Assembly (NCBI RefSeq): GCF_028737205.1
Contig: NZ_JAQZAL010000009.1
Coordinates: forward strand, 124,001 to 188,000
Length of the DNA stretch: 64,000 nt
Reading direction: 5' to 3'
DNA from: Actinomycetospora lutea
GTDB lineage: Bacteria > Actinomycetota > Actinomycetes > Mycobacteriales > Pseudonocardiaceae
The translations under genes were made by a program, and so were the position numbers. This document shows positions 643 through 57,933 of this stretch, in pieces. The notes under the pieces were generated by a model that had not been told where the DNA came from, ran no database searches, and saw nothing but the letters and a program-made list of their open reading frames with translations. Positions within the stretch are counted from its first letter, which is position 1. Each line of letters starts with the position of its first letter.

Positions 643-1815
643 ATGGTCGACTACGACCCCCGTACGAGTACCGGCATCCCGACCGAGCCGGTCGGTTCGA
701 TGCCGCGGCCCGCGAAACTCCAGGAGGCGTACGCCGCGTACGACGAGGGCAAGATCGACAAGGCAGCCCTCGAGGCGGAGCAGGAGGCCGCCGTCGACGA
801 CACCCTCGCCCGCTACGAGGCGACCGGTGCACCGATCATCTCCGACGGCGAGCAGCGGTGGTCGTCGTTCGCGACCTACCCGATCACCGACACCCTCGCC
901 GGCACCGGCCTCGCGCCCTCGCTCGGCCCCGGCGGGCAGTTCTTCGCGATCTTCGCCGACGGGCACGGCCGCCAGCTGCCGAAGCTCGTCAAGGGCCCCT
1001 TCGAGTACGTCAACTACGCCGCCGACTCGCTGAAGAAGTCGATCGGCAAGACGCGGACGCCGATGAAGCAGGCGGTCATCGCGCCGTCGATGCTCGCCCT
1101 GCTCTACCCGCTGCGCGACCCGGTGGAGGGCTACAGCCGCGAGGACTTCGAGGCGAAGCTCATCGACGAGTGCGAGAAGGACATCCGCCTCGCCTTCGAC
1201 GCGGGCGCCGCCCGGGTGTCGGTCGACTTCACCGAGGGCCGTCTGGCCACCCGCGAGGATCCGCGCAACCCGTGGACCGGCGCGGGCCTGCTGCCCCACT
1301 TCATCGAGCTCATCAACGGCGTGATGGCCCGGTTCTCCCCCGAGGAGCGCACGAAGATCGGCATCCACACCTGCCCCGGCGGCGACCGCGACTCGGTGCA
1401 CTCCGCCGATGTGCCCTACAACAACCTGCTGCCGGAGATGTTCAAGATCAACGCCGGCTACTTCCTCATCCAGCTCGCCAGCGAGCGGGAGAAGGACCCG
1501 GTCTACGAGTCGATCGGCGAGCACCTGCGCACGGACGCCGACGGCGTGAGGCAGATGGCGTACCTCGGGGTGATCAACCCCGGCAACCCCCGCGTGGAGA
1601 GCGCCGAGGAGGTCGCCGACCGGCTCGTCCGCGCCGCCGACTTCATCGACCGCCAGCAGATCGGCTCCACCGACGACTGCGGCTTCTCCCCCTTCTCGAT
1701 CGACGAGAAGCCCAACCACGGCTCGCCGGACTACGCCCGCGAGGTGGCCTTCCAGAAGATCACCAACCGGGTCGCCGGGACGCGGATGGCGGCCGAACGG
1801 CTCGGGGTGTCCTGA
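643..1815 (+). CDS. cobalamin-independent methionine synthase-like protein (MetE catalytic-domain type)
   Basis: The 390-residue protein matches only the catalytic half of MetE (about 750 residues), the 'core MetE' type that transfers a methyl group to a thiol. Visible motifs are GSMPRP near residue 19, SDGEQ near 67-71, and a zinc site formed by His242 and Cys244 (IHTCPGG) plus Cys346 (STDDCGFSPF). All metal ligands appear to be retained, so the enzyme should be active. The missing N-terminal half normally helps bind polyglutamyl folate, so the methyl donor may be another folate, a methylated corrinoid protein or a small methylated compound. That choice cannot be read from sequence. An acetyltransferase gene follows after 7 bp. 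Confidence 0.8.
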   Translation: MVDYDPRTSTGIPTEPVGSMPRPAKLQEAYAAYDEGKIDKAALEAEQEAAVDDTLARYEATGAPIISDGEQRWSSFATYPITDTLAGTGLAPSLGPGGQFFAIFADGHGRQLPKLVKGPFEYVNYAADSLKKSIGKTRTPMKQAVIAPSMLALLYPLRDPVEGYSREDFEAKLIDECEKDIRLAFDAGAARVSVDFTEGRLATREDPRNPWTGAGLLPHFIELINGVMARFSPEERTKIGIHTCPGGDRDSVHSADVPYNNLLPEMFKINAGYFLIQLASEREKDPVYESIGEHLRTDADGVRQMAYLGVINPGNPRVESAEEVADRLVRAADFIDRQQIGSTDDCGFSPFSIDEKPNHGSPDYAREVAFQKITNRVAGTRMAAERLGVS

Positions 1816-1822
1816 GCCGCCG

Positions 1823-2281
1823 GTGACCCTGGAGTTCCGCGCCGAGCGGGCCGACGCCCCGCCGGGCCGGGAGCTGCTCGCCGACCTCAACGCGCTGCTC
1901 GACGCCCAGTACCCCGGGCGCTCCGCGCGCCCGGGGTCGGTGACCACCCCGGACGAGCTGGCGCCGCCGCGCGGCCGGTTCCTGGTGGGCTACGACGACG
2001 GGGTGCCCGTCGCGGTCGGTGGGCTGCGGCCGCTCGGGGAGCAGGTGGCGGAGATCAAGCGGATGTACGTCGTCCCGCCCGCGCGGTCCCGGGGTGTGGG
2101 CCGCGCGCTGCTCACCGCGCTCGAGGACGCCGCCCGCGAGCTGGGCTACGCCCGCGTCCGCCTCGACGCGGGGGCCGAGCAGCGGCACAGCCGGGCGCTG
2201 TTCGCCGCCGCCGGCTACCGGTCCATCCCGCCGTACAACGGCAACCACATCGCCGCGTTCTTCGGTGAGAAGGAGCTCTAG
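1823..2281 (+). CDS. GNAT family N-acetyltransferase
   Basis: A 152-residue single-domain GNAT protein. The acetyl-CoA pyrophosphate loop is the R-S-R-G-V-G-R-A segment near residue 93, after a beta-strand (AEIKRMYVVP), and the C-terminal RALFAAAGYRSIPPYN region is typical of the fold. The start is GTG, 7 bp after the MetE-like stop, so the two are probably co-transcribed. The substrate is unknown; the family acetylates amines on small molecules or proteins. Confidence 0.8.
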   Translation: MTLEFRAERADAPPGRELLADLNALLDAQYPGRSARPGSVTTPDELAPPRGRFLVGYDDGVPVAVGGLRPLGEQVAEIKRMYVVPPARSRGVGRALLTALEDAARELGYARVRLDAGAEQRHSRALFAAAGYRSIPPYNGNHIAAFFGEKEL

Positions 2282-2382
2282 GGGGCGAGCTGCTCGCCAC
2301 GTCGGCCGTGGGCAACCGTTCGGCCTGCTGAATCGCCGGGGCCCCGATACCGTGATGGCCGTCACGGTCGGGGGTGGTCAGG

Positions 2383-3048
2383 ATGGTGTCGACGTCCGAG
2401 ACGCCGGTGCGTCCCGACCGGTTGTTCGACCTGGTCACGGGTTTTCCGCCCGACGACGCCATCGACCTCGTGGTGCCGGTGCCGCTGTCGCTCGCGATCT
2501 ACATGACGATGCTCGAGTCGACCGGCCACGCCGCACCCGTGGCGGCCCTGCGCAAGATCCACGACCACGAGGCGTCGGTGACCGCGCGGGCGGTGCAGGC
2601 GACGGTCGGCTTCGTCCACGGCCCCGACGGCCCCGAGCCGGCGCGTCTCGCCCTCGCGCACGTCGTGGAGGAGCGCGTCCCCCGCGTCAACGGGGTGCGT
2701 CCGCACCTGCACGTCTACGTGGGCGGCACCGCCGTCGCCCTCGCCGACGGGCGCCGGGCCCCGATCGACATCGACCTCCTGGCGGCCCGCGCCGACTCCG
2801 ACCTCTTCCCCGACCACCGCGACCGCCTGGCCACGGCGTCGGCGGAGCGTCTCGGGCTGGTGTGGGGCGAGGCGTCGGCCGGGTCGCTGGAGATCCTCGA
2901 GCCGGCGTGGCTCGCGGAGCGCGCGGGCCAGTTGCTCCGCGACGGCGAGCCGTTCTGCCCGGGCCCGTTCGCCCGGCGCCGGGTCGTCGCCGGCGAGCGC
3001 CACCTGCGCCGGGTCGGCGAGGAGCTCCGGGACGCGCCGGGCCCCTGA
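2383..3048 (+). CDS. hypothetical protein, weakly TrwC-relaxase-like segment
   Basis: About 221 residues, soluble, without signal peptide or membrane segment. The middle (HDHEASVTARAVQATVGFVHG, later RPHLHVYVGGTAVALADGRRAPID) loosely recalls the N-terminal domain of TrwC/MobA conjugative relaxases, where a His-rich strand binds metal. Only two of the expected histidines are present, and no helicase part or mobility neighbours exist. It may be a stand-alone derivative of that fold. Start candidates are GTG 2374, ATG 2383 and GTG 2386; I chose the ATG. Confidence 0.55.
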   Translation: MVSTSETPVRPDRLFDLVTGFPPDDAIDLVVPVPLSLAIYMTMLESTGHAAPVAALRKIHDHEASVTARAVQATVGFVHGPDGPEPARLALAHVVEERVPRVNGVRPHLHVYVGGTAVALADGRRAPIDIDLLAARADSDLFPDHRDRLATASAERLGLVWGEASAGSLEILEPAWLAERAGQLLRDGEPFCPGPFARRRVVAGERHLRRVGEELRDAPGP

Positions 3049-3068
3049 GGGCACTTCACCCGCGGCGG

Positions 3069-4379
3069 ATGATGGCGCGCGGCACCCGACTCGTGAGGGT
3101 CCACAGCGTGTCCGCCGTCGATGACCTCACCGAACTCGTCGAGCGCGCCGGTGCGGCCGAGCGCGAAGCGCTCGCGTCGAAGTGGAAGGAGCGGGCGGAC
3201 GTCGAGGCCCTGCGACGTCACGTCCGGGGCGTCCTCGACGACCAGCGGGCGGCGGAGCGCCGGGAGCCCCTCGGGTCCGGGAGCGACGAGCGGCGGTTGC
3301 GGGTGCGCTCGGCGCTGATCGAGGAGACCGTCGACGTCCCCGCCCCGGCGGAGGGCCCGGTGACCCACGCCGACGCCGCCCGCGCCGAGGCGGACGCGGC
3401 GGCCGCCGTCACCGTGGCCCGGCTCGCGCTCGTCGAGGCCCACCTGGCCGTGCTCGACGCCCGACTCGCGCGCCTCGACGCCGGCGAGGACGGGCCCGCG
3501 GCGGCGTCGGTCGACGGCCAGGCCGTGCTCTCGGGGCGCACCGCGGTCGGGCGGCACGGCCCCGCGCTCGCCCACGGCCTGCGCGGCGAGATCGGCTACA
3601 TGATCACGCGCAAGCCGCGCACGCTGCTCACGAGCCTCGCGGTCAGCCTGGCGCTCGGGCTGCTCTACCTCGGCGTGATCCGCCTGTTCCAGTGGGACAC
3701 CAAGGCGCAGTACCTGCCCTACCTCGGGCTGTGGGCCGTCTCGGTCGTCATGGGCGGCGCGGTCTGCCTCAACGCGATGAGCTTCGACGGCATGCGCGTG
3801 CGCGCGGCCCTGGAGAGCGGCGCCCGCCTCTGGCACCTCCTGGTGACCAAGAACCTGGCCCTGGTCTGCCTGGTCGCGCCGATCGGGTTCCTCATCAGCG
3901 CGCTGCTGTCCTGGCGCGCCGGGAGCTGGGAGGCGTTCCTGCGGGCCTGCGCGCTGATGATCTCGTTCATCCTGCTGTGGCTCGGCGTCGGCAACATCGC
4001 CTCGGTGATCGTGCCGATCCGCGACGAGCCGATCTGGCACCGCCGCCGCGACGGCACGCTCAAGCAGTTCGCGGTGGTCTTCGCGGTGTCCTACGTCCTC
4101 GGCTACGCCGTGAACCTCATGCTGATCGTCCGCGTGTTCGCCGCGCAGCAGTGGGCGGAGCGCTCCGGCGTCATCATCCTGCCCGCGATCTTCGTCGTCC
4201 TCAGCAGCGTGGTGATGTGGGTGCTGCTCACGATCGTCGCGGTGGCGCTGTCGCAGCAGCCGAAGGTCCGGCGGGGGCTGATGAAGGAGCTCGCGGACGC
4301 CCCGCCGGAGCCGGTGGCCGCGCCGCGCGAGGAGACCCCCGAGGAGACGTCCCGGAGGACTCCTCAGACGACCACGTAG
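3069..4379 (+). CDS. multi-span membrane protein with Ala-rich helical N-terminal region
   Basis: About 436 residues. The first 170 are charged and Ala/Glu/Arg-rich, likely helical or coiled-coil and cytoplasmic. The C-terminal half has roughly six membrane spans, beginning with a segment after MITRKPRTLLTSL and ending near the VVMWVLLTIVAVAL stretch, followed by a Pro/Glu-rich tail. There is no recognisable catalytic or transport motif. Tandem ATGs at 3069/3072 and a GTG at 3108 (VSAVDDL) are all possible starts; the GTG would remove a basic leader. It follows the previous gene by 20 bp and may share its transcript. Confidence 0.6.
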   Translation: MMARGTRLVRVHSVSAVDDLTELVERAGAAEREALASKWKERADVEALRRHVRGVLDDQRAAERREPLGSGSDERRLRVRSALIEETVDVPAPAEGPVTHADAARAEADAAAAVTVARLALVEAHLAVLDARLARLDAGEDGPAAASVDGQAVLSGRTAVGRHGPALAHGLRGEIGYMITRKPRTLLTSLAVSLALGLLYLGVIRLFQWDTKAQYLPYLGLWAVSVVMGGAVCLNAMSFDGMRVRAALESGARLWHLLVTKNLALVCLVAPIGFLISALLSWRAGSWEAFLRACALMISFILLWLGVGNIASVIVPIRDEPIWHRRRDGTLKQFAVVFAVSYVLGYAVNLMLIVRVFAAQQWAERSGVIILPAIFVVLSSVVMWVLLTIVAVALSQQPKVRRGLMKELADAPPEPVAAPREETPEETSRRTPQTTT

Positions 4380-4431
4380 ACCGGCCGTGTCCGGGGTGTC
4401 ATCGGGCCGATCTTCCTGGCACGGTGCCATC

Positions 4432-5400
4432 GTGCGCCGCGTGCTGTGCCGGGAGTTCGGCCCGACCGACAACCTCGAGGTCGTCGACGAGCCGGATCCC
4501 GCTCCCGGGCCGGGTCAGGTCGTCGTCGCCGTCGAGGCCGCCGGCGCGAGCTTCGTCGACGCGCTCATCGTGCGCGGCGGCTACCAGCTGCGCCCCGAGC
4601 TGCCCTTCACGCCCGGGACCGCGGTGGCCGGGCGCGTGGTCGCCGTCGGGGAGGGCGTCGACGGCCGGGCGCGGGGGTGCCGAGTGGCGGCGCTGATGAT
4701 GGGCTTCGGCGCGTACGCCTCGCACGTGGTGGTGCCCGCCGAGGAGATCGCGCCGCTGTCCGAGGACGTCGACGCCGCGGTCGCGGCGACCGCGCTCGAG
4801 AACTACAGCACCCTGCTGTTCGCCACCACCCACCGCCTGCCGATCACCGCGGGTGAGCGCGTCGTGGTGCTGGGCGCGGGCGGCGGGATCGGGCTGGCGG
4901 CGGTCGACGTCACCCGGGGCCTCGGTGCGCGGGTGCTGGCGGTGGCGTCGAGCGACGAGAAGCGCGGCGCCGCTCTGGCCGCCGGCGCCGAGGACGCGAT
5001 CGGCTACGACGCGCTCAGGGACACGATCCGCGCGCACACCGACGGCGGCGCCGACGTCGTGATCGACCCGGTGGGCGGCGAGGCCGCCGAGTCGGCCCTG
5101 CGCGCCCTGCGGCCCTACGGGCGCTACGCGGTGCTCGGGTTCACCGCCGGCACGATCCCCCGCCTGCCCGCCAACCGGGTGCTGATCGGCAACCACACCG
5201 TGGTCGGCGTCGACTGGGGCGACTGGGCGCGCACCGCGCCGGCCGCGGCGACCGCGCTCGTCGGGACCCTGCTGGCGCGGGTCGACGGGGGCGAGCTGCA
5301 CCCGCCGGAGCCCGCCCGCCGCCCGCTCGACGAGGCCGGCACGGTGCTCGGGCTGTTCGCCGAGCGCGCCGTCACCGGGAAGATCGCGCTCATCCCGTGA
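4432..5400 (+). CDS. zinc-independent medium-chain dehydrogenase/reductase, quinone oxidoreductase type
   Basis: About 322 residues. The GroES-like N-terminal domain (GQVVVAVEAAGASFVDALIVRGGYQ) carries no structural-zinc cysteines. The Rossmann domain has VVLGAGGGIGLAAVDV in place of the usual AAGGVG. This is the NADPH:quinone oxidoreductase / acryloyl-CoA-reductase-like branch, which reduces quinones or enones with NAD(P)H in the cytoplasm. GTG 4432 gives the usual VRRVLCREFG start; an upstream GTG at 4387 would add an atypical leader. Its 3' end overlaps the convergent amylase gene by 11 bp. Confidence 0.8.
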   Translation: MRRVLCREFGPTDNLEVVDEPDPAPGPGQVVVAVEAAGASFVDALIVRGGYQLRPELPFTPGTAVAGRVVAVGEGVDGRARGCRVAALMMGFGAYASHVVVPAEEIAPLSEDVDAAVAATALENYSTLLFATTHRLPITAGERVVVLGAGGGIGLAAVDVTRGLGARVLAVASSDEKRGAALAAGAEDAIGYDALRDTIRAHTDGGADVVIDPVGGEAAESALRALRPYGRYAVLGFTAGTIPRLPANRVLIGNHTVVGVDWGDWARTAPAAATALVGTLLARVDGGELHPPEPARRPLDEAGTVLGLFAERAVTGKIALIP

Positions 5401-6673
5401 GGAGCCGCCATCCGTGCGGCGGCAGGAGCAGCGGGTCGTCGGTGGCCTCGGACTCGGCGAGCGTCTTGCCGTGCGGCAGGTCCGGGAGCCGCTGCGGTGC
5501 GTCGTCGGTGGAGAGCAGGACGAGCACCGAGGCGTCGGGACCGGTGCTGCGCAGGGCGAGCGTCGTGTTGGACAGGTGCTCGACGCCCGTGCGGGCGTGG
5601 GTGAGCCAGGGGTGGCGGCGCCGGACCCCGATGAGGCGCTGGTGCAGCTCGCGCACCGGGGCGCCGAACGTGGCGAGCCCGGTGGGGTCGTCGGGGAACG
5701 GGGGCCGGACGGCGTCGTCGCCGAACTCGTGCTCCTCCTTCACACCGGTGAACGCCTGCTCGTCGCCGGCGTAGATCGACGGGACGCCACCGACGCCCAG
5801 GAGCACCGCGAGCGCGTGCCCGAGGTGGTCGTCGCGCTCGAGGCGGCTCGCGATGCGCGTGACGTCGTGGTTGCCGAGGAAGGTGAGCGGGGCGAACGTG
5901 TCGAGCATCGCCGAGTGACGCTCCACCGCGTGGGCGAGCTCGTAGAAGTTGCGGTCGTTGAGCGCGCTCCAGACGGCCTTCCAGAGCTCGTACTGGGTCA
6001 CCGAGTCGAGGCCGGCCTCGATGACGAACGCGGCGTAGTCGCCGTGGATCACCTCGCCGACGAACCACGCGTCGGGGTGCTCGGCCCGCACACCGGGCAG
6101 GACGGCGCGCCAGAACGCGTGCGGCACCTGGTAGGCCGCGTCCAGCCGCCACCCGTCGGCGCCGCGGTCCAACCAGTGCCGCATCACCGCGCCGACGTGG
6201 TCCTGCACCGCGGGCTCGGCATGGTCCAGGGCGACGAGCAGGTCGTGGCCCTCGAAGGACGCGGGCCCGTCGTCGCCCCAGCGGAACCAGCGGCGCGCCT
6301 CGGGATCGCCCTGCTCGGCGAGGCGGAACATCGGGAAATCGCGGCCGACGTGGTTGAACACGCCGTCGAGCAGCACGCGGATGCCCCGGTCGCGGCAGGC
6401 GCCCACCAGGGCGTCGAAGTCCTGCTCGTCGCCCAGGCGCGGGTCGATGCGCAGGAAGTCGGTGGTGTCGTAGCCGTGGCTGCCCGCGGCGAACACCGGA
6501 CCGAGCGCGAGCCCGGAGCAGCCGAGCTCGAGCAGGTAGTCGAGCCAGTGCTCGAGCTGCCCGAGGCGGTGGACCGGGGCGCTGTCGGGCGGGAGCGCCT
6601 CGCGCTCGGCGCCGACGAAGCCCAGGGGGTAGACCTGCCACCAGATCGCGTGGTCGATCCACGTCGCACTCAT
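5390..6673 (-). CDS. alpha-amylase family (GH13) glycosidase
   Basis: A 427-residue (beta/alpha)8 glycosidase with all four GH13 conserved regions: GVFNHVGRDF, GWRLDAAYQVP (Asp nucleophile), FVGEVIHGDY (Glu acid/base) and FLGNHDVTR. The opening WWQVYPLGFVGAE is typical of alpha-glucosidase or cytoplasmic maltodextrin-acting members. There is no signal peptide, so it probably acts inside the cell on short alpha-glucans. I start at the ATG at 6673 (MSATWIDHAIWWQVYP); an upstream in-frame extension to 6934 has no family similarity. The substrate is not predictable. Confidence 0.85.
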   Translation of the reverse strand: MSATWIDHAIWWQVYPLGFVGAEREALPPDSAPVHRLGQLEHWLDYLLELGCSGLALGPVFAAGSHGYDTTDFLRIDPRLGDEQDFDALVGACRDRGIRVLLDGVFNHVGRDFPMFRLAEQGDPEARRWFRWGDDGPASFEGHDLLVALDHAEPAVQDHVGAVMRHWLDRGADGWRLDAAYQVPHAFWRAVLPGVRAEHPDAWFVGEVIHGDYAAFVIEAGLDSVTQYELWKAVWSALNDRNFYELAHAVERHSAMLDTFAPLTFLGNHDVTRIASRLERDDHLGHALAVLLGVGGVPSIYAGDEQAFTGVKEEHEFGDDAVRPPFPDDPTGLATFGAPVRELHQRLIGVRRRHPWLTHARTGVEHLSNTTLALRSTGPDASVLVLLSTDDAPQRLPDLPHGKTLAESEATDDPLLLPPHGWRLLTG

Positions 6674-51935: not shown

Positions 51936-52586
51936 ATGACCCTCCCGCTGCCCCAGCAGATGCTCCTGCTCTCCGCCGAGACCGCCCGCCACCGGCTCGA
52001 CGTCGCGAGCGTGCTCGTCCGCGGCCCGCTCCTGCGCGCCGCCGCGGCCGCCGACCTGGCCCTGCACGGCGCGCTGCGCCCGTCCGGACGCCGCGGGCGG
52101 GTCGAGCGGACCGGCGCCGGGGACGCGGGCGGTGACCCGTTCCTCGCCGCCGTCCTCGACGCCGTGCCCACCGACCGCGAACGCCGCTGGTTCGGCGTGG
52201 TCGACGAGGACTTCCACCTCGCCGAGGACGCGGTGCTCGACGGGCTCGAGGCCGACGGGACGATCACGACCGAGCGGCGCCGGGCGTGGGGCCTGTTCCC
52301 CGTGCGGCGCACGACGGTCACCCGGCCCGCGCAGGTGACGGAGCTGCGCGAACGGGTGCGCGACGCGGTCCTGGGCGGGCACGACCCGGCCGAGGTCGCG
52401 ATCGCCGATGCCGTGCTCGCGGTGCTCGCCGCCGACGGCGGGGTCGGCGTCGCGTTCGGGATCCGCGAGCAGCACCGCCACCGCGCGGCGTTCAAGGATG
52501 TCGCCGACCGCGTCGAGGCGCGCCTGCCCGGCTTCCGCGAGGGCACGCTCTACGCGATCGCCGCGCGCCGGGCCGCCGCGTCCTGA
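51936..52586 (+). CDS. GPP34 (GOLPH3-like) family protein
   Basis: 216 residues, helical, matching the GPP34 family: LLLSAETARHRLDVASVLVRGPLLRAAAAADLALHG, later VLGGHDPAEVAIADAVLAVLAADGGV. Eukaryotic GOLPH3 binds phosphoinositides on Golgi membranes. In actinobacteria these proteins are numerous and of unknown function, perhaps membrane-associated. GGGGAG precedes ATG 51936. It shares a mirror-image promoter element with the divergent S9 gene. Confidence 0.85.
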   Translation: MTLPLPQQMLLLSAETARHRLDVASVLVRGPLLRAAAAADLALHGALRPSGRRGRVERTGAGDAGGDPFLAAVLDAVPTDRERRWFGVVDEDFHLAEDAVLDGLEADGTITTERRRAWGLFPVRRTTVTRPAQVTELRERVRDAVLGGHDPAEVAIADAVLAVLAADGGVGVAFGIREQHRHRAAFKDVADRVEARLPGFREGTLYAIAARRAAAS

Positions 52587-52608
52587 GCCGCGCGGTCGGT
52601 CAGCCGCC

Positions 52609-52743
52609 GTGCACCAGCAGCACACCTACGCCACGGGCGAGGACCTGGCGCACCAGCACCGCCCGGCGGCGACGCAGCGTCTGCACCGGCGCCTCCGCGA
52701 GATCGCGAGCCGGGACGTCCCCTCCGCCGTATCCAACGTATAG
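52609..52743 (+). CDS. possible 44-residue small protein
   Basis: GTG-started frame HQQHTYATGEDLAHQHRPAATQ... ending EIASRDVPSAVSNV, rich in His, Gln, Arg and Ala, with about 93% G/C at third positions. It begins 22 bp after GPP34 and its TAG stop lies in the HelD-like leader just before the RAE-like palindrome. It could be an amphipathic small protein or a leader peptide. No family is recognised. Confidence 0.35.
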   Translation: MHQQHTYATGEDLAHQHRPAATQRLHRRLREIASRDVPSAVSNV

Positions 52744-52750
52744 CGGAGAG

Positions 52751-52770
52751 GGGGACTTGCCACAAGCCCC
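52751..52770. promoter_or_regulatory. inverted repeat resembling the rifamycin-associated element (RAE)
   Basis: GGGGACTTGCCACAAGCCCC, 44 bp before the HelD-like start: outer GGGG/CCCC and inner CTTG/CAAG arms around CCA, with one unpaired A. As I recall, the RAE found before rifamycin-inactivation and HelR genes is a GC-rich inverted repeat with CTTGC/GCAAG cores and G4/C4 ends. The match in both motif and target gene is striking, but I could not compare against the published consensus. Confidence 0.6.
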
Positions 52771-52814
52771 GGGCCGTTCTGCACCATTCTGCGGTCGCCG
52801 TCGCGAGGAGGCCT

Positions 52815-55010
52815 GTGTCGGACCAGGGGCATGACCGGGAATTGCAGGACGAACGGCGCTACGTCGCCGATCTGTACGCGCGTCTCGACGAGCAGCGCCG
52901 CGCGGCACGGGAGGCGTACCGGGCGGCGCTGGGGAACGAGGAGTCGCCGACGGACCGCGACGTGACGGTGCGGGCCACGGCTGCGCAGGTGAGACGCCTG
53001 GACGTCGCGGACAACGGGCTCTGCTTCGGCCGGCTGGACGGCCTGTCCGGCGAGCGCTCGTACATCGGACGGATCGGGATCCTCGATGAGGAGAACGACC
53101 ACGAGCCGCTGCTGATGGATTGGCGGGCCCCGGCCGCTCGACCATTCTACACCGCGACCGGCGCGAATCCGGAGAACACGCGTCGTCGTCGCCGGTTCCA
53201 CACCCGCGGGCGCCGGGTGGTCGATTTCACCGACGAAGTGCTGGGCCGTCCGGGAGAGGGCGACGGCACCGACACGGACGCGGCGCTCCTGGCCGCGGTG
53301 AACGCACCGCGCGGCGAGGGCATGCGCGACATCGTCGCCACGATCCAGGCCGAGCAGGACGAGATCATCCGGCTCGAGCACCCGGGGGTCACGGTCATCG
53401 AGGGCGGCCCCGGCACCGGCAAGACCGTGGTCGCGCTGCACCGCGTCGCGTACCTGCTCTACACCCAGCGCGAGCGCATCGAACGCCACGGCGTCCTGGT
53501 CGTCGGGCCCAACCCGGCGTTCGGGGACCACATCGGCCAGGTGCTGCCCTCGCTGGGCGAGTCCGACGTCGTGTTCGTGACGCCGGGCGACCTCGTCCCC
53601 GGCCTGCACGTCACCGCCGAGGACGGCCCGGTGGCGGCGCGGGCGAAGGGGTCGCTCGCGATCCTCGACGTGCTCGCCGGCGCGATCGCGGACCGTCAGC
53701 GGTTGCCCGACGAGCCGCGGGAGATCGAGCTCCAGGACCTCAGGGTGCGCATCGACGCCGCGACCGCGCAGTGGGCGCGCGAGGAGGCGCGGGCGACCGG
53801 CCTGCCGCACAACGAGGCCCGCGCCACGTTCCGCGAGATCGTGGTCTACGTGCTCACCGAGCGGGCGATCGGGCGCATCGGCCGGGGCTGGCTGACGCGC
53901 GACGACACCGCGGCGTGGGAGCAGATGCGCACGGAGCTCCTCGACGAGCTCGCCGAGCACGAGGGTTTCGCGGCCGCGCTCGACGCGCTGTGGCCGGTCC
54001 TCACGCCCGAGGACGTGCTGGGGCGGCTCTACGAGTCCCCGCAGCGGCTGCGCGCCGCGGGCGCGGACCCCGCGCTGTTCCGCCCCGACGGCGCCGCGTG
54101 GACGGTGTCGGACGTCCCGCTGCTCGACGAGCTCGTCGACCTCCTCGGCCGCGACCCGGCGGCGGCACGGGCCGAGGACCGGGCCGCCGCGGCCGAGCAG
54201 GCCGCCGCGACCGAGTACGCGGCGGGCGTCATGGAGATCCTGACGCTGGACCGCGAGGAGCTGGACGAGGATCTCGGGGTGCGGGTCGAGGACCTCATCG
54301 CGGCCGAGGGCATCGCGGACCGGTTCGAGGAGACCGACACCCGCGAGCTCGCCGAGCGCGCCGCCGCCGACCGCGACTGGACCTACCGCCACGTGGTCGT
54401 CGACGAGGCCCAGGAGCTGTCGGCGATGGACTGGCGGGTGCTGATGCGCCGCTGCCCGGCCCGCGCGTTCACCGTCGTCGGCGACCTCGCCCAGCGCCGC
54501 TCCCCCGCCGGCGCGAGGTCGTGGGGCGCGATGCTCGACCGGTACGTCGCCGACCGCTGGGTGTACCGGTCGCTGACGCTCAACTACCGCACGCCGGCGG
54601 AGATCATGACCGTCGCCGCGGCCCTGCTCGCCGAGTTCGCGCCGGGGGTGACACCGCCGGAGTCGGTGCGCGCGAGCGGTGTCGTGCCGTGGGCGCGGCG
54701 GGTGGATTCCGCGGGGCTGTCCGCGGGCGTCGAGGAGTTCGTGCTCGCCGAGGAGCCGGTCGAGGGGACGAGCGTGGTGATCGGTCCCCCGGAGGTCCCC
54801 GGGGCGGTGGCGCCGTCGGCGACCAAGGGGCTCGAGTTCGACGCCGTGCTGGTGGTCGAGCCGGAGCGCATCCTCGCCGCGGGCCCGCAGGGTGCCGCCG
54901 ACCTCTACGTCGCCCTCACCCGTGCGACCCAGCGGCTGGGCGTCCTGCACACGGGCCCGTTGCCGGCGGCGCTGACCGGGCTCGCCGAGACTGCCAGGGT
55001 GGGGACGTGA
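52815..55010 (+). CDS. HelD-family RNA polymerase-associated helicase-like protein (HelR candidate)
   Basis: 731 residues. N-terminal charged coiled-coil arm (residues 8-40), SF1-type ATPase with Walker A GGPGTGKT (197-204), Walker B VVVDEAQELS, then LTLNYRTPAEIM, ATKGLEFDAVLVVEPE and YVALTRATQRL. HelD proteins push arms into RNA polymerase channels and release it from DNA. The HelR branch confers tolerance to rifamycins. The RAE-like repeat upstream supports HelR over a general housekeeping HelD. GTG 52815 has a GAGGAG site. The next gene overlaps by GTGA. Confidence 0.85.
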   Translation: MSDQGHDRELQDERRYVADLYARLDEQRRAAREAYRAALGNEESPTDRDVTVRATAAQVRRLDVADNGLCFGRLDGLSGERSYIGRIGILDEENDHEPLLMDWRAPAARPFYTATGANPENTRRRRRFHTRGRRVVDFTDEVLGRPGEGDGTDTDAALLAAVNAPRGEGMRDIVATIQAEQDEIIRLEHPGVTVIEGGPGTGKTVVALHRVAYLLYTQRERIERHGVLVVGPNPAFGDHIGQVLPSLGESDVVFVTPGDLVPGLHVTAEDGPVAARAKGSLAILDVLAGAIADRQRLPDEPREIELQDLRVRIDAATAQWAREEARATGLPHNEARATFREIVVYVLTERAIGRIGRGWLTRDDTAAWEQMRTELLDELAEHEGFAAALDALWPVLTPEDVLGRLYESPQRLRAAGADPALFRPDGAAWTVSDVPLLDELVDLLGRDPAAARAEDRAAAAEQAAATEYAAGVMEILTLDREELDEDLGVRVEDLIAAEGIADRFEETDTRELAERAAADRDWTYRHVVVDEAQELSAMDWRVLMRRCPARAFTVVGDLAQRRSPAGARSWGAMLDRYVADRWVYRSLTLNYRTPAEIMTVAAALLAEFAPGVTPPESVRASGVVPWARRVDSAGLSAGVEEFVLAEEPVEGTSVVIGPPEVPGAVAPSATKGLEFDAVLVVEPERILAAGPQGAADLYVALTRATQRLGVLHTGPLPAALTGLAETARVGT

Positions 55011-55894
55011 GCACCCTCGACTGGTACGGCTGCGCGACGTTCCGCCTGCGCACCGCGGAAGGCCTCACCGTCTGGCTCGACGCCTACCTGGACCGGGTCC
55101 CGGACGCCGAGCAGAGCGGTGTCGGCGTCGACGACGTCACCGCCGCCGACTGGATCCTCGTCGGGCACAGCCACTTCGACCACCTCTGGGGCGCCGAGCG
55201 CATCGCGGTCCGGACCGGGGCGACGGTCGTCGGGTCCTACGAGTCGGTGCGCGTGCTGGCCGCGGCCGGGGTGCCCGAGGAGCAACTGCTCGCGGTGGGC
55301 GGCGGCGAGCGGGTGGCCCTGGACGCGAGCACGTCGGTGCGGGTGCTGCCCAGCCTGCACTCGTGCGTGTGGTCGTCGCAGCCGATGCCGCCCGCCGACG
55401 AGGTCTGCCTCGGCGAGACGGGGCTGACGCTGCAGGAGCGCAGCGAGCGGATGCGCGCCCTCTGGGCGGGCTTCGGCGCGCTGGGCGACGACGTGCGCGC
55501 CCACATGCAGGCCGCGGACCAGGGCGAGCGCGGCGACGGGGGCGCGCTGGTGTTCGTCGTCGAGACCTCCGAGGGCAGCGTGCTGTTCCAGGACACCATC
55601 GGCTGCTGGAGCGGGGTGCTGGGGCAGCAGTCGCCGGACGTCGCGATCCTCGCCGTCGCGGGACGCGGCAACCGCGACGGCGAGCCGGTGCAGGGCAGCA
55701 CCGCGGACTTCGTCGCCGAGCAGGCCGCGGCCCTCGGCGCGCGCACGGTCGTGCCGTGCCACCACGACGACTGGCTGCCCGGCTTCTCGCGGGCGATCGA
55801 CACGGCGCCCATCCGCGCCGCCGTCGCGCGGGCCGCGCCGGGCACGACGCTCGTCGACCTGCCCTACGCCTCGGGGTACGCGCTGTTCCGGTGA
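55007..55894 (+). CDS. metallo-beta-lactamase fold hydrolase
   Basis: 295 residues. The VGHSHFDHLWG motif provides the HxHxDH dinuclear-metal site, with later VLPSLHS, the FQDTIGCWSG Asp and a VVPCHHDDW C-terminal His. The opening LDWYGCATFRLRTAEGLTVWLDAYLDR is typical of L-ascorbate-6-phosphate-lactonase/UPF0173-like members. Substrate unknown. The GTG start overlaps the helicase stop, so it is translated together with it; a role linked to rifamycin is possible but purely contextual. Confidence 0.8.
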   Translation: MSTLDWYGCATFRLRTAEGLTVWLDAYLDRVPDAEQSGVGVDDVTAADWILVGHSHFDHLWGAERIAVRTGATVVGSYESVRVLAAAGVPEEQLLAVGGGERVALDASTSVRVLPSLHSCVWSSQPMPPADEVCLGETGLTLQERSERMRALWAGFGALGDDVRAHMQAADQGERGDGGALVFVVETSEGSVLFQDTIGCWSGVLGQQSPDVAILAVAGRGNRDGEPVQGSTADFVAEQAAALGARTVVPCHHDDWLPGFSRAIDTAPIRAAVARAAPGTTLVDLPYASGYALFR

Positions 55895-55985
55895 CCCGGC
55901 CACGGTCGCCACCGGCCACGGTCGCCACCGGCCCGCCCGTCGACGCGCACGTGTGGGACCGGCGCGGACGGGAGAGGCTGGGGGC

Positions 55986-57933
55986 ATGGCCGCAGACGGG
56001 CCCGTCGAGCAGCCGGCGGGCATCCCCTCCGACGTCGTCGCGGCCTTCGAGGACATCCCGGCGGTGCTCTGGGCGTTCGAGGGGCCCGAGCACCGCGTCG
56101 TCGCCGCCAACCGCGCCGCGCGGGCCAGCATGGGCTTCCGTCCCGACATCGTCGGGCGCCCGATCCGGGAGGTCGCGCCGGAGCTCGAGGGCCAGCAGGT
56201 GTTCGAGACCCTCGACGAGGTGTGGGCCCGCGGGGAGCCGGTGATCGGCGACGAGCGGCGCATCCTCGTCGACCGCGACGGCGACGGCCGCCTCGAGGAG
56301 GACTTCTACTCCTACACGTTCGTCCCCACCCACCACGCCGACGGCTCGATGCGGGGCATGACGGTGCACATCGGGCGGGTCACCGACGAGGTGCTGCGCC
56401 GGCGCGTGGCCGAGACCTCGGCCGCCGAGTCGGAGCGCCGGCTCCACGCGGCGCAGGACATCGTGCTCACCCTGCAGCGCTCGCTGCTGCCCGCCGCCCT
56501 GCCGGTGCTGCCCCGCGCCCGCCTCGCCGCGCGCTACGTCGTCGCCGGCCAGGAGCTCGCGGCCGGCGGCGACTGGTTCGACGCGGTGCCGCTCGCCGAC
56601 GGGCGGCTGGCGGTCGCGGTCGGCGACGTCGTCGGCCACGGCGCGGCCGCGTCGGCGGCCATGGGCCGGTTGCGGGCGGTCGGCGCCAACGCGCTCGCGG
56701 CCGACCGCGGCGTGGCGGGGACCCTCGCCGAGCTCGACCGCTTCGCGGCCCGCGAGCGCGCCACCCGCGCGGCCACCGTCTGCGTCGCGGTGCTCGACCC
56801 GGGCACCGGCGAGCTCGAGCTGGCCGCCGCCGCGCACCCGCCGCCGTTCGTGGTCACCGCCGGGGGCACCGCCCGCTGGATCGACGTCGCCCCCGGCGCG
56901 CCGCTGGGGACCGGGGCGCCCGTCCCGACCCCGACGCTCGACCGGCTCGGCCCCGGCGACGTGCTCGTCCTCTACACCGACGGCCTGGTCGAACGGCCCG
57001 GGCACCCGCTCGGCGACGGGCTCGAGGCGCTCGCCCGCACCGCGGTCGCCGCCGGCCACGAGCACGTCGAGGACGACACGACGGTGCCGACCGCGCAGGT
57101 CGACCGGATCGCCGCCCTCACCGTCGAGCGCCTGGGCTGGACCGGCGGCGGTCACACCGACGACGCGACCCTGCTCGCGGTCCAGCGCACCGCGGAGCCG
57201 ACGGCGCCGTTCACGCTCGACATCCCGGCGCACCCCCGCGGCCTGCGCACCCTGCGTCGCGGGCTCGACGCCTGGCTCGACGCGGCCGGGGTCGGCGAGG
57301 ACGACACGGTGGCGCTGGTCCACGCCGCCGGGGAGGCCGCCACCAACGCGATCGAGCACGCCTATCCCGATCCGCCCGCCGACGGCGACGGCGTCCGGAT
57401 CACCGCCGGGCTCGACGACGGCGGAGGCGTCACCGTCACCGTCGCCGACACCGGGAGCTGGCGCGCTGCCGCCGAGGAGGCGGGCGGCCGCGCGCGCGCT
57501 GATGATGATGCGCGGCCTCGTCGACCGGGTCGACGTCGCCACCGGGCCCGACGGCACCACGGTGACGCTGTCGACGCCGGCGCGGCGCGACGTCCTCGTC
57601 AGCGCCTTCGGCGACGACAGCACGCCCGCCGCCCGCGGCGTGCCCGAGGACCTGAGCACCGAGACGCGCGGCGACGTGCTCGCGGTGACCGGCCCGATCG
57701 ACACCGGCACCGTCGAGCGCTTCCGTCACCGGGTGCTGGAGGTCGCCCGCGGCGGGGCACGCAAGCTGACCGTCGACCTCGACGGCGCCTCGGTGTTCTC
57801 GAGCTCGGCGGTGCAGGCCGTGCACGAGCTGCGCCGCGACCTCCCCGGCCTGCGCCTGCACGCGGCGGGCATGAGCGTCGCGGGACGGGTCCTCGCCCTC
57901 ACCGGCCTCGACGACCTGCTCGACGACACCTGA
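55986..57933 (+). pseudogene. PAS-PP2C-HATPase-STAS sigma-regulator protein, frameshifted in a CG repeat
   Basis: Expected product of about 648 residues: PAS-like sensor (residues 20-145), SpoIIE/RsbU-type PP2C phosphatase (GGDWFDAVPL, VGDVVGHGAAASAAM, LYTDGLVERPG, GHTDDATLLAV), anti-sigma-type HATPase (HAAGEAATNAIEHAYPD, VTVADTGSWR) and a C-terminal STAS domain (VLAVTGPIDTGTVERFRHRVLEVARGGARKLTVDLDGASVFSSSAVQAV). The frame is lost at a CGCGCGCGCG run near 57488-57498; adding one CG unit restores it. Such four-domain proteins join partner switching in one chain and control stress sigma factors. As sequenced, the STAS part would only be made as a separate ORF beginning with MMM (57502). Confidence 0.75.

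Follow-up and report, generated by a model that had tools for sequence, protein, structure and literature searches.

The stretch of DNA analysed here (64,000 nucleotides, called the window hereafter) probably contains a rifamycin-response unit, made up of a helR gene and a rifamycin-associated element (RAE) that would act as the core of two competing, mirror-image promoters, with rifamycin shifting the outcome to the sense promoter. To judge from sequence, the locus is a further example of the known RAE-helR type, and its mirror-promoter architecture appears to be new. How the RAE senses rifamycins is stated to be unknown in the consulted sections of a 2022 review (PMC10719064) and of a 2026 paper (PMC12802891). 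The module described below predicts exact bases, namely those of the antisense start, of two -10 boxes and, in many lineages, of a 5' hairpin. If the mirror-promoter reading is true, it offers a concrete route to studying bacterial rifamycin sensing. Since known actinobacterial rifamycin-resistance genes lie behind RAEs, the mechanism would bear on a clinically important drug class.

A preliminary description of this DNA had pointed to a 20-bp palindrome 44 bp before a 731-residue HelD-family gene and had proposed that it is an RAE. The 20-mer GGGGACTTGCCACAAGCCCC is indeed found at 52751-52770, 44 bases before the GTG start codon at 52815 of a 731-residue open reading frame. It occurs only once in the 64,000-nt window when up to three mismatches are allowed, and 0 of 100 shuffled sequences contained a match. 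The repeat itself thus stood up, but the element that aligns with those of relatives is the 19-mer GGGACTTGCCACAAGCCCC, the arms of which harbour an A.C mismatch. We then looked for other copies, as had been proposed. The loose RAE pattern CTTGCN{0,2}CAAGNCCC matched three times, at two places, in the complete genome of 6,531,507 bases, the second place being on contig C62, ~50 bases before a gene for a rifampin monooxygenase (NCBIfam, 848.2 bits; cut-off 800). As the only other genomic place precedes this gene, and the copies of relatives precede helR, rox, rgt, rph or arr, the window palindrome is on sequence grounds a true RAE, a 19-bp inverted repeat before a rifamycin-resistance gene. In Mycobacterium abscessus, the RAE is described as rifamycin-inducible, and induction is lost when the repeat is broken (PMC10719064). 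Two other structures were considered and discarded. An RNA hairpin formed by the RAE in the sense leader is foldable for the window copy (z -2.46), but its pairing is not kept among 116 aligned sites, since the fourth position of the arms most often holds G on one side and A on the other. An inverted repeat overlapping the RAE (CCCTCCGC/GCGGAGAGGG) is, by eye, clear in some members of the genus and absent in others.

Table 1. Coordinates of the features of the RAE-helR locus in the window.
Feature	Position	Strand	Basis or remark
GPP34-domain gene, upstream	51936..52586	+	Same direction as helR; predicted antisense promoter points at its 3' end
Predicted antisense RNA, first 50 bases, without the 5' hairpin of relatives	52679..52728	-	Fold compared with shuffles
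Predicted antisense transcription start (GG)	52727..52728	-	Sequence conservation
Antisense -10 box TACGTT	52735..52740	-	Starts 21 bases from RAE centre, opposite side
RAE, 19-base inverted repeat GGGACTTGCCACAAGCCCC	52752..52770	+	Centre 52761; aligned with 116 sites
Putative sense -35 TTGCCA, inside RAE	52757..52762	+	19-base spacer to -10; presumed role
Putative antisense -35 TTGTGG (minus strand), overlapping sense -35	52760..52765	-	Mirror position; presumed role
Sense -10 box CACCAT	52782..52787	+	Starts 21 bases from RAE centre
Ribosome binding site GAGGAGG	52805..52811	+	Sequence
helR, 731 aa, class II HelD/HelR	52815..55010	+	NCBIfam profiles, alignment to M. smegmatis HelD
MBL-fold metal-dependent hydrolase	55007..55894	+	GTGA overlap with helR; not a conserved partner

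The product of the gene behind the RAE is, by its sequence, HelR (class II HelD), as had been suggested. It passes the NCBIfam model motor_HelR_2 (NF041258) with 1265.1 bits for a cut-off of 1100. In the proposed alignment with a characterized HelD, its residues 1-726 align to residues 1-724 of M. smegmatis HelD (6yxu_H) with short gaps only; the residues of the primary channel loop were not located in this alignment. The DWRAP motif and the Walker A motif GGPGTGKT are visible, and orthologues with 70-86% identity are encoded in 14 of the 17 other genomes of the genus. Class II HelD/HelR proteins enter RNA polymerase and release rifamycin and stalled complexes. Protection of the polymerase by HelR is described in PMC10719064 and PMC11464796. 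A housekeeping HelD preceded by a palindrome that matches the RAE by chance is a very improbable reading. In its favour, the recycling of stalled polymerase is another activity of HelD proteins, and the window protein passes HelD_MYCSM too (NF041465, 1253.2 bits; cut-off 1051). Against this stand the score with motor_HelR_2, the absence of matches in the shuffled sequences and the fact that the only other RAE place of the genome precedes rifampin monooxygenase. In addition, the pattern GGGNCTTGNNNCAAGNCCC is common: of 298 genomes sampled from the order, 178 contain it, and of 394 from the class, 168 (the two samples overlap), whereas its reversed control is much rarer in both. Finally, a separate HelD paralogue (~50% identity) is encoded elsewhere in the same genome, and no RAE module was found in the surrounding DNA examined. 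By eye, an ORF resembling a different MBL-fold hydrolase (L005:3886-4854, minus strand) precedes this RAE-less paralogue, and the C-terminal end of that ORF seemingly also lies before the paralogue in genus loci L021-L024.

To describe the surroundings of the element, we aligned 116 sites selected by their RAE core (118 were found and two dropped for short flanks) and oriented by their flanks; GGG, CTTG, CAAG and CCC are fixed in these sites and in the 24 later ones because they were chosen by the core. Eighteen of the 116 sites come from the genus of the window, 12 of them from loci first obtained via the HelR protein. The 24 later sites, one per genome, were taken from 40 sites in 24 genomes preselected by the pattern scan of the class. 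Larger sets comprise 188, 186 or 184 sites, since those too close to a contig end were dropped.

Distinct modules are almost always followed by genes of rifamycin resistance: 184 of 188 sites precede a gene similar to those for HelR (two types), Rox, Rgt, Rph or Arr. By similarity, these are the window-type HelR (72), the other NCBIfam-type HelR (68), Rox (19), Rgt (13), Rph (8) and Arr (4). Among representatives scanned against NCBIfam cut-offs, Rox, the second HelR type and Arr pass, and Rgt (511 of 800 bits) and Rph (798 of 999, the gene being ended by the locus end) fall below. Conversely, 56 of 80 HelR loci found by protein homology have a module within 500 bases before helR. Thirteen of the other 24 have it further upstream, and in 11 none was found in the upstream DNA examined; HelR-group genes without a clear RAE are also noted in PMC8655204. 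The 13 distant modules lie before a full-length Rgt-like gene in nine loci, a short Rgt fragment in two (L160, L173) and a fused Rgt-HelR frame in one (L165), and ~500 bases before helR in L204.

The RAE is flanked by two boxes placed in mirror image. On the helR side, the box spans +21 to +26 relative to the RAE centre, and its A at +22 and T at +26 are each present in 115 of 116 sites. At the same distance on the other side, the antisense strand reads TAnnnT, with T21 in 113, A22 in 115 and T26 in 112 of the 116 sites. These A and T positions are those that matter in a -10 element, and TAnnnT is its usual actinobacterial form. Both boxes are present in the window copy and in all 24 later loci, which come from four families new to the locus set. 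The same box columns are found at 53-56 of the 56 modules in HelR loci found by protein, and TAnnnT occurs at antisense +21 in 178 of 186 sites, with none of the other offsets between 12 and 44 giving more than three; conservation of the boxes in the 188-site and 56/80 sets is partly by construction, because the matrix was trained on the 116 sites. The sites are also related by descent; filtering out similar ones at 55% ungapped identity leaves 136 of the 186, both boxes being present in 127 of these. A simple promoter and terminator scan around the RAE, limited to spacers of 16-18 bases, gave no match.

Because sense and antisense -10 boxes each start 21 bases from its centre, the RAE appears to be a -35 core common to two promoters arranged back to back, and we regard the two-box architecture of the module as well supported by sequence. 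The upstream box might instead be the -10 of a first of two tandem sense promoters, P1 and P2, in keeping with the two sense starts reported for M. smegmatis helD (PMC10719064). We find this improbable. On the sense strand, the box reads TATAGC; its position 6 is C in 111 of 116 sites and is never T among 184 classified ones, so the T required in a -10 is missing. In addition, a -10 at -22 to -17 is not consistent with the P1 start as described, which lies ~20 bp before the RAE. Nor does the predicted antisense promoter appear to be that of a divergent gene: in 183 of the 188 sites (five were excluded), a crude gene caller made the upstream gene co-directional in 116 and divergent in 63, and found none in four.

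Conservation extends to the predicted start of the antisense RNA. The antisense -10 is followed by six further bases and then GG, seen as C at -33 in 113 of 116 sites and at -34 in 102 of 116, and GG is present in all 24 later-locus rows. Where the antisense box is shifted by one base towards the RAE, as in three sites, GG is shifted by one base along with it. At the same place, the antisense strand tends to form a stem. As the pair types come from stems that had been chosen for pairing and are biased accordingly, the position profile of the stem score is the fairer test. Averaged over 165 sites from other genera, the stem-forming score of the antisense strand peaks exactly at +33 (9.48, vs a background of 4.20 with sd 0.52). 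In the 24 later loci, it is 9.7 at +33, compared with 3.8 at +60 and with 4.9 for the sense side. A strong stem at the antisense start was found in 76 of 186 sites vs 13 after shuffling; of these 76, 73 belong to the 167 sites outside the genus and three to the 19 within it. The nine bases past the stems hold on average 3.88 T in the antisense and 2.76 in the sense direction, for a background of 1.51.

The 19 sites of the genus have no clear hairpin peak (5.74 vs 5.13 for the background), and the antisense stretch of the window folds no better than its shuffles (z 1.17; 179 of 200 at least as good). MAFFT alignment and consensus folding of the hairpin region gave no structure, loop lengths being variable. 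Rfam at gathering scores gave no match for the antisense RNA in seven loci, and two weak matches in window positions 52400-56000 both lie away from the RAE. The main text of the M. smegmatis transcription start paper (PMC6448022) does not name MSMEG_2174. We also observed a second hairpin, GTCCG...CGGAC, farther along the antisense strand, for instance in L150, L160, L173 and L183, followed by CCTCC in several cases. A regular expression for it matched 15 of 186 sites and 4 of 186 shuffled ones; hence, it is a feature of a subset.

The RAE might alternatively be the operator of a rifamycin-responsive dimeric regulator, with the upstream box as part of its site or as a second activator site and no functional antisense promoter. 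The RAE is conserved across both arms, GGG and CCC included, with positions -8, -7 and +8 conserved in 56 of 56 HelR-locus modules. A transcription factor is suggested in PMC12802891 and PMC10719064, and the 20-bp pseudo-palindrome of the DriD activator also overlaps a -35 (preprint PMC12340889). However, the upstream box is an antisense TAnnnT at the exact mirror position, with its middle bases free, and a regulator site would predict neither a conserved GG at the right distance nor a peak of hairpin potential there. We consider this explanation unlikely, though not negligible.

In the mirror-promoter reading, the polymerase would use the RAE as its -35 and either 52782-52787 or 52735-52740 as its -10, hardly both together. 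In drug-free cells, it would favour the antisense direction, because the antisense -10 is the better one (TAnnnT vs CAnnnT), and it would perhaps be placed by a dimeric RAE-binding protein. The antisense RNA, hairpin-headed in many relatives, may be a short stub. Rifamycin would tip the balance to the sense promoter; helR would then be made, and its product, a class II HelD/HelR, would release rifamycin and stalled complexes from RNA polymerase. We infer the activity of the antisense promoter, the competition of both promoters and the effect of rifamycin on its outcome.

The RAE is conserved over 17-19 bases, which exceeds what a -35 requires; a DNA-binding protein is therefore likely to be involved, and the polymerase alone may not suffice. 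We consider it about as likely as not that such a protein performs the switch, and less likely that the polymerase senses the drug alone. Simple competition would not predict induction, because an antisense polymerase arrested by rifamycin would also cover the RAE and block the sense side. Several points speak against the mechanism. No module was found upstream of helR, in the DNA examined, in 11 of the 80 HelR loci, the window copy is devoid of the 5' hairpin, and a strong hairpin is present in a minority of sites. P1 and P2 of M. smegmatis helD are described as sense-oriented (PMC12802891, PMC10719064), and the five Escherichia coli bidirectional promoters tested in PMC12825309 are reported to show little competition at basal activity.

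Bacillus subtilis is described as sensing rifampicin through interference of an antisense promoter with its sense counterpart (PMC12802891). The polymerase itself might likewise be the sensor at the RAE, as in this dual-promoter alarm, with no RAE-binding protein. Like the helD/pps alarm of B. subtilis, the RAE locus is a rifamycin-response gene with a (here predicted) antisense promoter; that of Bacillus is reported to be stronger than the sense one, and that of the RAE has the better -10. In contrast, the Bacillus promoters are separate and convergent, with ~39 bp between them, and are no longer induced once this distance is shortened by 17 bp (PMC12802891), whereas those predicted at the RAE diverge, overlap and share a palindromic -35 core. 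Together with an RAE that is more conserved than a -35, this makes a purely polymerase-based sensor rather unlikely in our view. Bacillus helD is described as being without an RAE (PMC10719064). A broader reading, which we put forward only tentatively, is that the RAE is the palindromic -35 core of a mirror bidirectional promoter making a short antisense RNA, hairpin-headed in many lineages, and that rifamycin is sensed via the orientation of the polymerase; the system would then be an independently evolved actinobacterial counterpart of the Bacillus alarm.

The locus otherwise resembles the RAE-controlled helR of M. abscessus, M. smegmatis and Streptomyces venezuelae, with a 19-bp inverted repeat and a class II HelD (PMC10719064, PMC8655204). 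As in promoter 2 of M. smegmatis helD (PMC10719064), a -35 lies inside the RAE, putatively so in the window, and as reported for S. venezuelae, a second RAE precedes rox, here the rifampin monooxygenase gene. The antisense mirror promoter and the 5' hairpin predicted for the module are not mentioned in the descriptions of RAE-helR loci consulted. No description of an antisense promoter at an RAE was found in the RAE/HelR literature searched, a set that did not include Spanogiannopoulos 2014, Surette 2022 and Hurst-Hess 2022. E. coli bidirectional promoters similarly have pseudo-symmetrical DNA that holds polymerase in two orientations (PMC12825309), but they are described as sharing their -10, whereas the RAE module would share the -35 core and have a separate -10 per direction; hence, the architecture appears to be new. 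Activation of the DriD/WYL type likewise involves a palindrome over a weak promoter's -35 (preprint PMC12340889), with DriD as the activator; for the RAE, a binding protein is postulated.

The preliminary description had also envisaged that the MBL-fold hydrolase gene next to helR forms a second part of a rifamycin-response operon. The coupling is present, in that the helR stop overlaps the start of this gene as GTGA (55007-55010), and the two genes are probably co-transcribed in the window, but the hydrolase is not a conserved partner. Its best NCBIfam model scored 54.3 bits, below the cut-off of 144. The gene is present in nine of 18 genomes of the genus (that of the window included) and lies beside helR in three, upstream of it in one of these; the two others than the window genome are G016, where it is directly downstream of helR, and G012, where it is upstream. 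Among 14 orthologue loci of the genus with 1.5-kb flanks, it was found beside helR in two, and it was found in 0 of the 80 HelR loci within the locus DNA examined. It is present without window-type HelR in G002 and G005, and in the fragmented G010 the match is partial and its neighbourhood not visible. A role of the hydrolase in rifamycin response is not supported.

Additional observations were made on the genes behind RAE modules. In L148, L155, L158, L164, L175, L192, L194, L209 and L220, a full-length Rgt-like gene lies between the module and helR, and this order suggests RAE-rgt-helR operons. In L165 (Mycobacterium deserti), a single frame of 1130 residues (1783-5172) encodes an Rgt-type glycosyltransferase fused to HelR, which may reflect either a genuine gene fusion or a sequencing error. 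In L148, L154, L158, L160, L170, L174, L187, L195, L202, L205, L215 and L223, where no module is found there, the region upstream of helR contains, by eye, another conserved leader, made up of a TTGACA-like box or an AT-rich stretch, a CGGCG inverted repeat, GTGAGGGG and the start. The four modules followed by genes outside the six classes include one before an esterase-like hydrolase gene and one before a gene for an MFS transporter of the drug-efflux type. In L194 (Nocardia brasiliensis), a macrolide-esterase-like hydrolase gene (5196-6086, minus strand) next to rgt-helR has a weaker RAE module of its own (score 36.2) and is a possible new rifamycin-response gene. In L077, a DHA2-type MFS transporter gene (870-2495, minus strand) lies behind a strong RAE module (score 78.6) and is possibly a rifamycin efflux gene.
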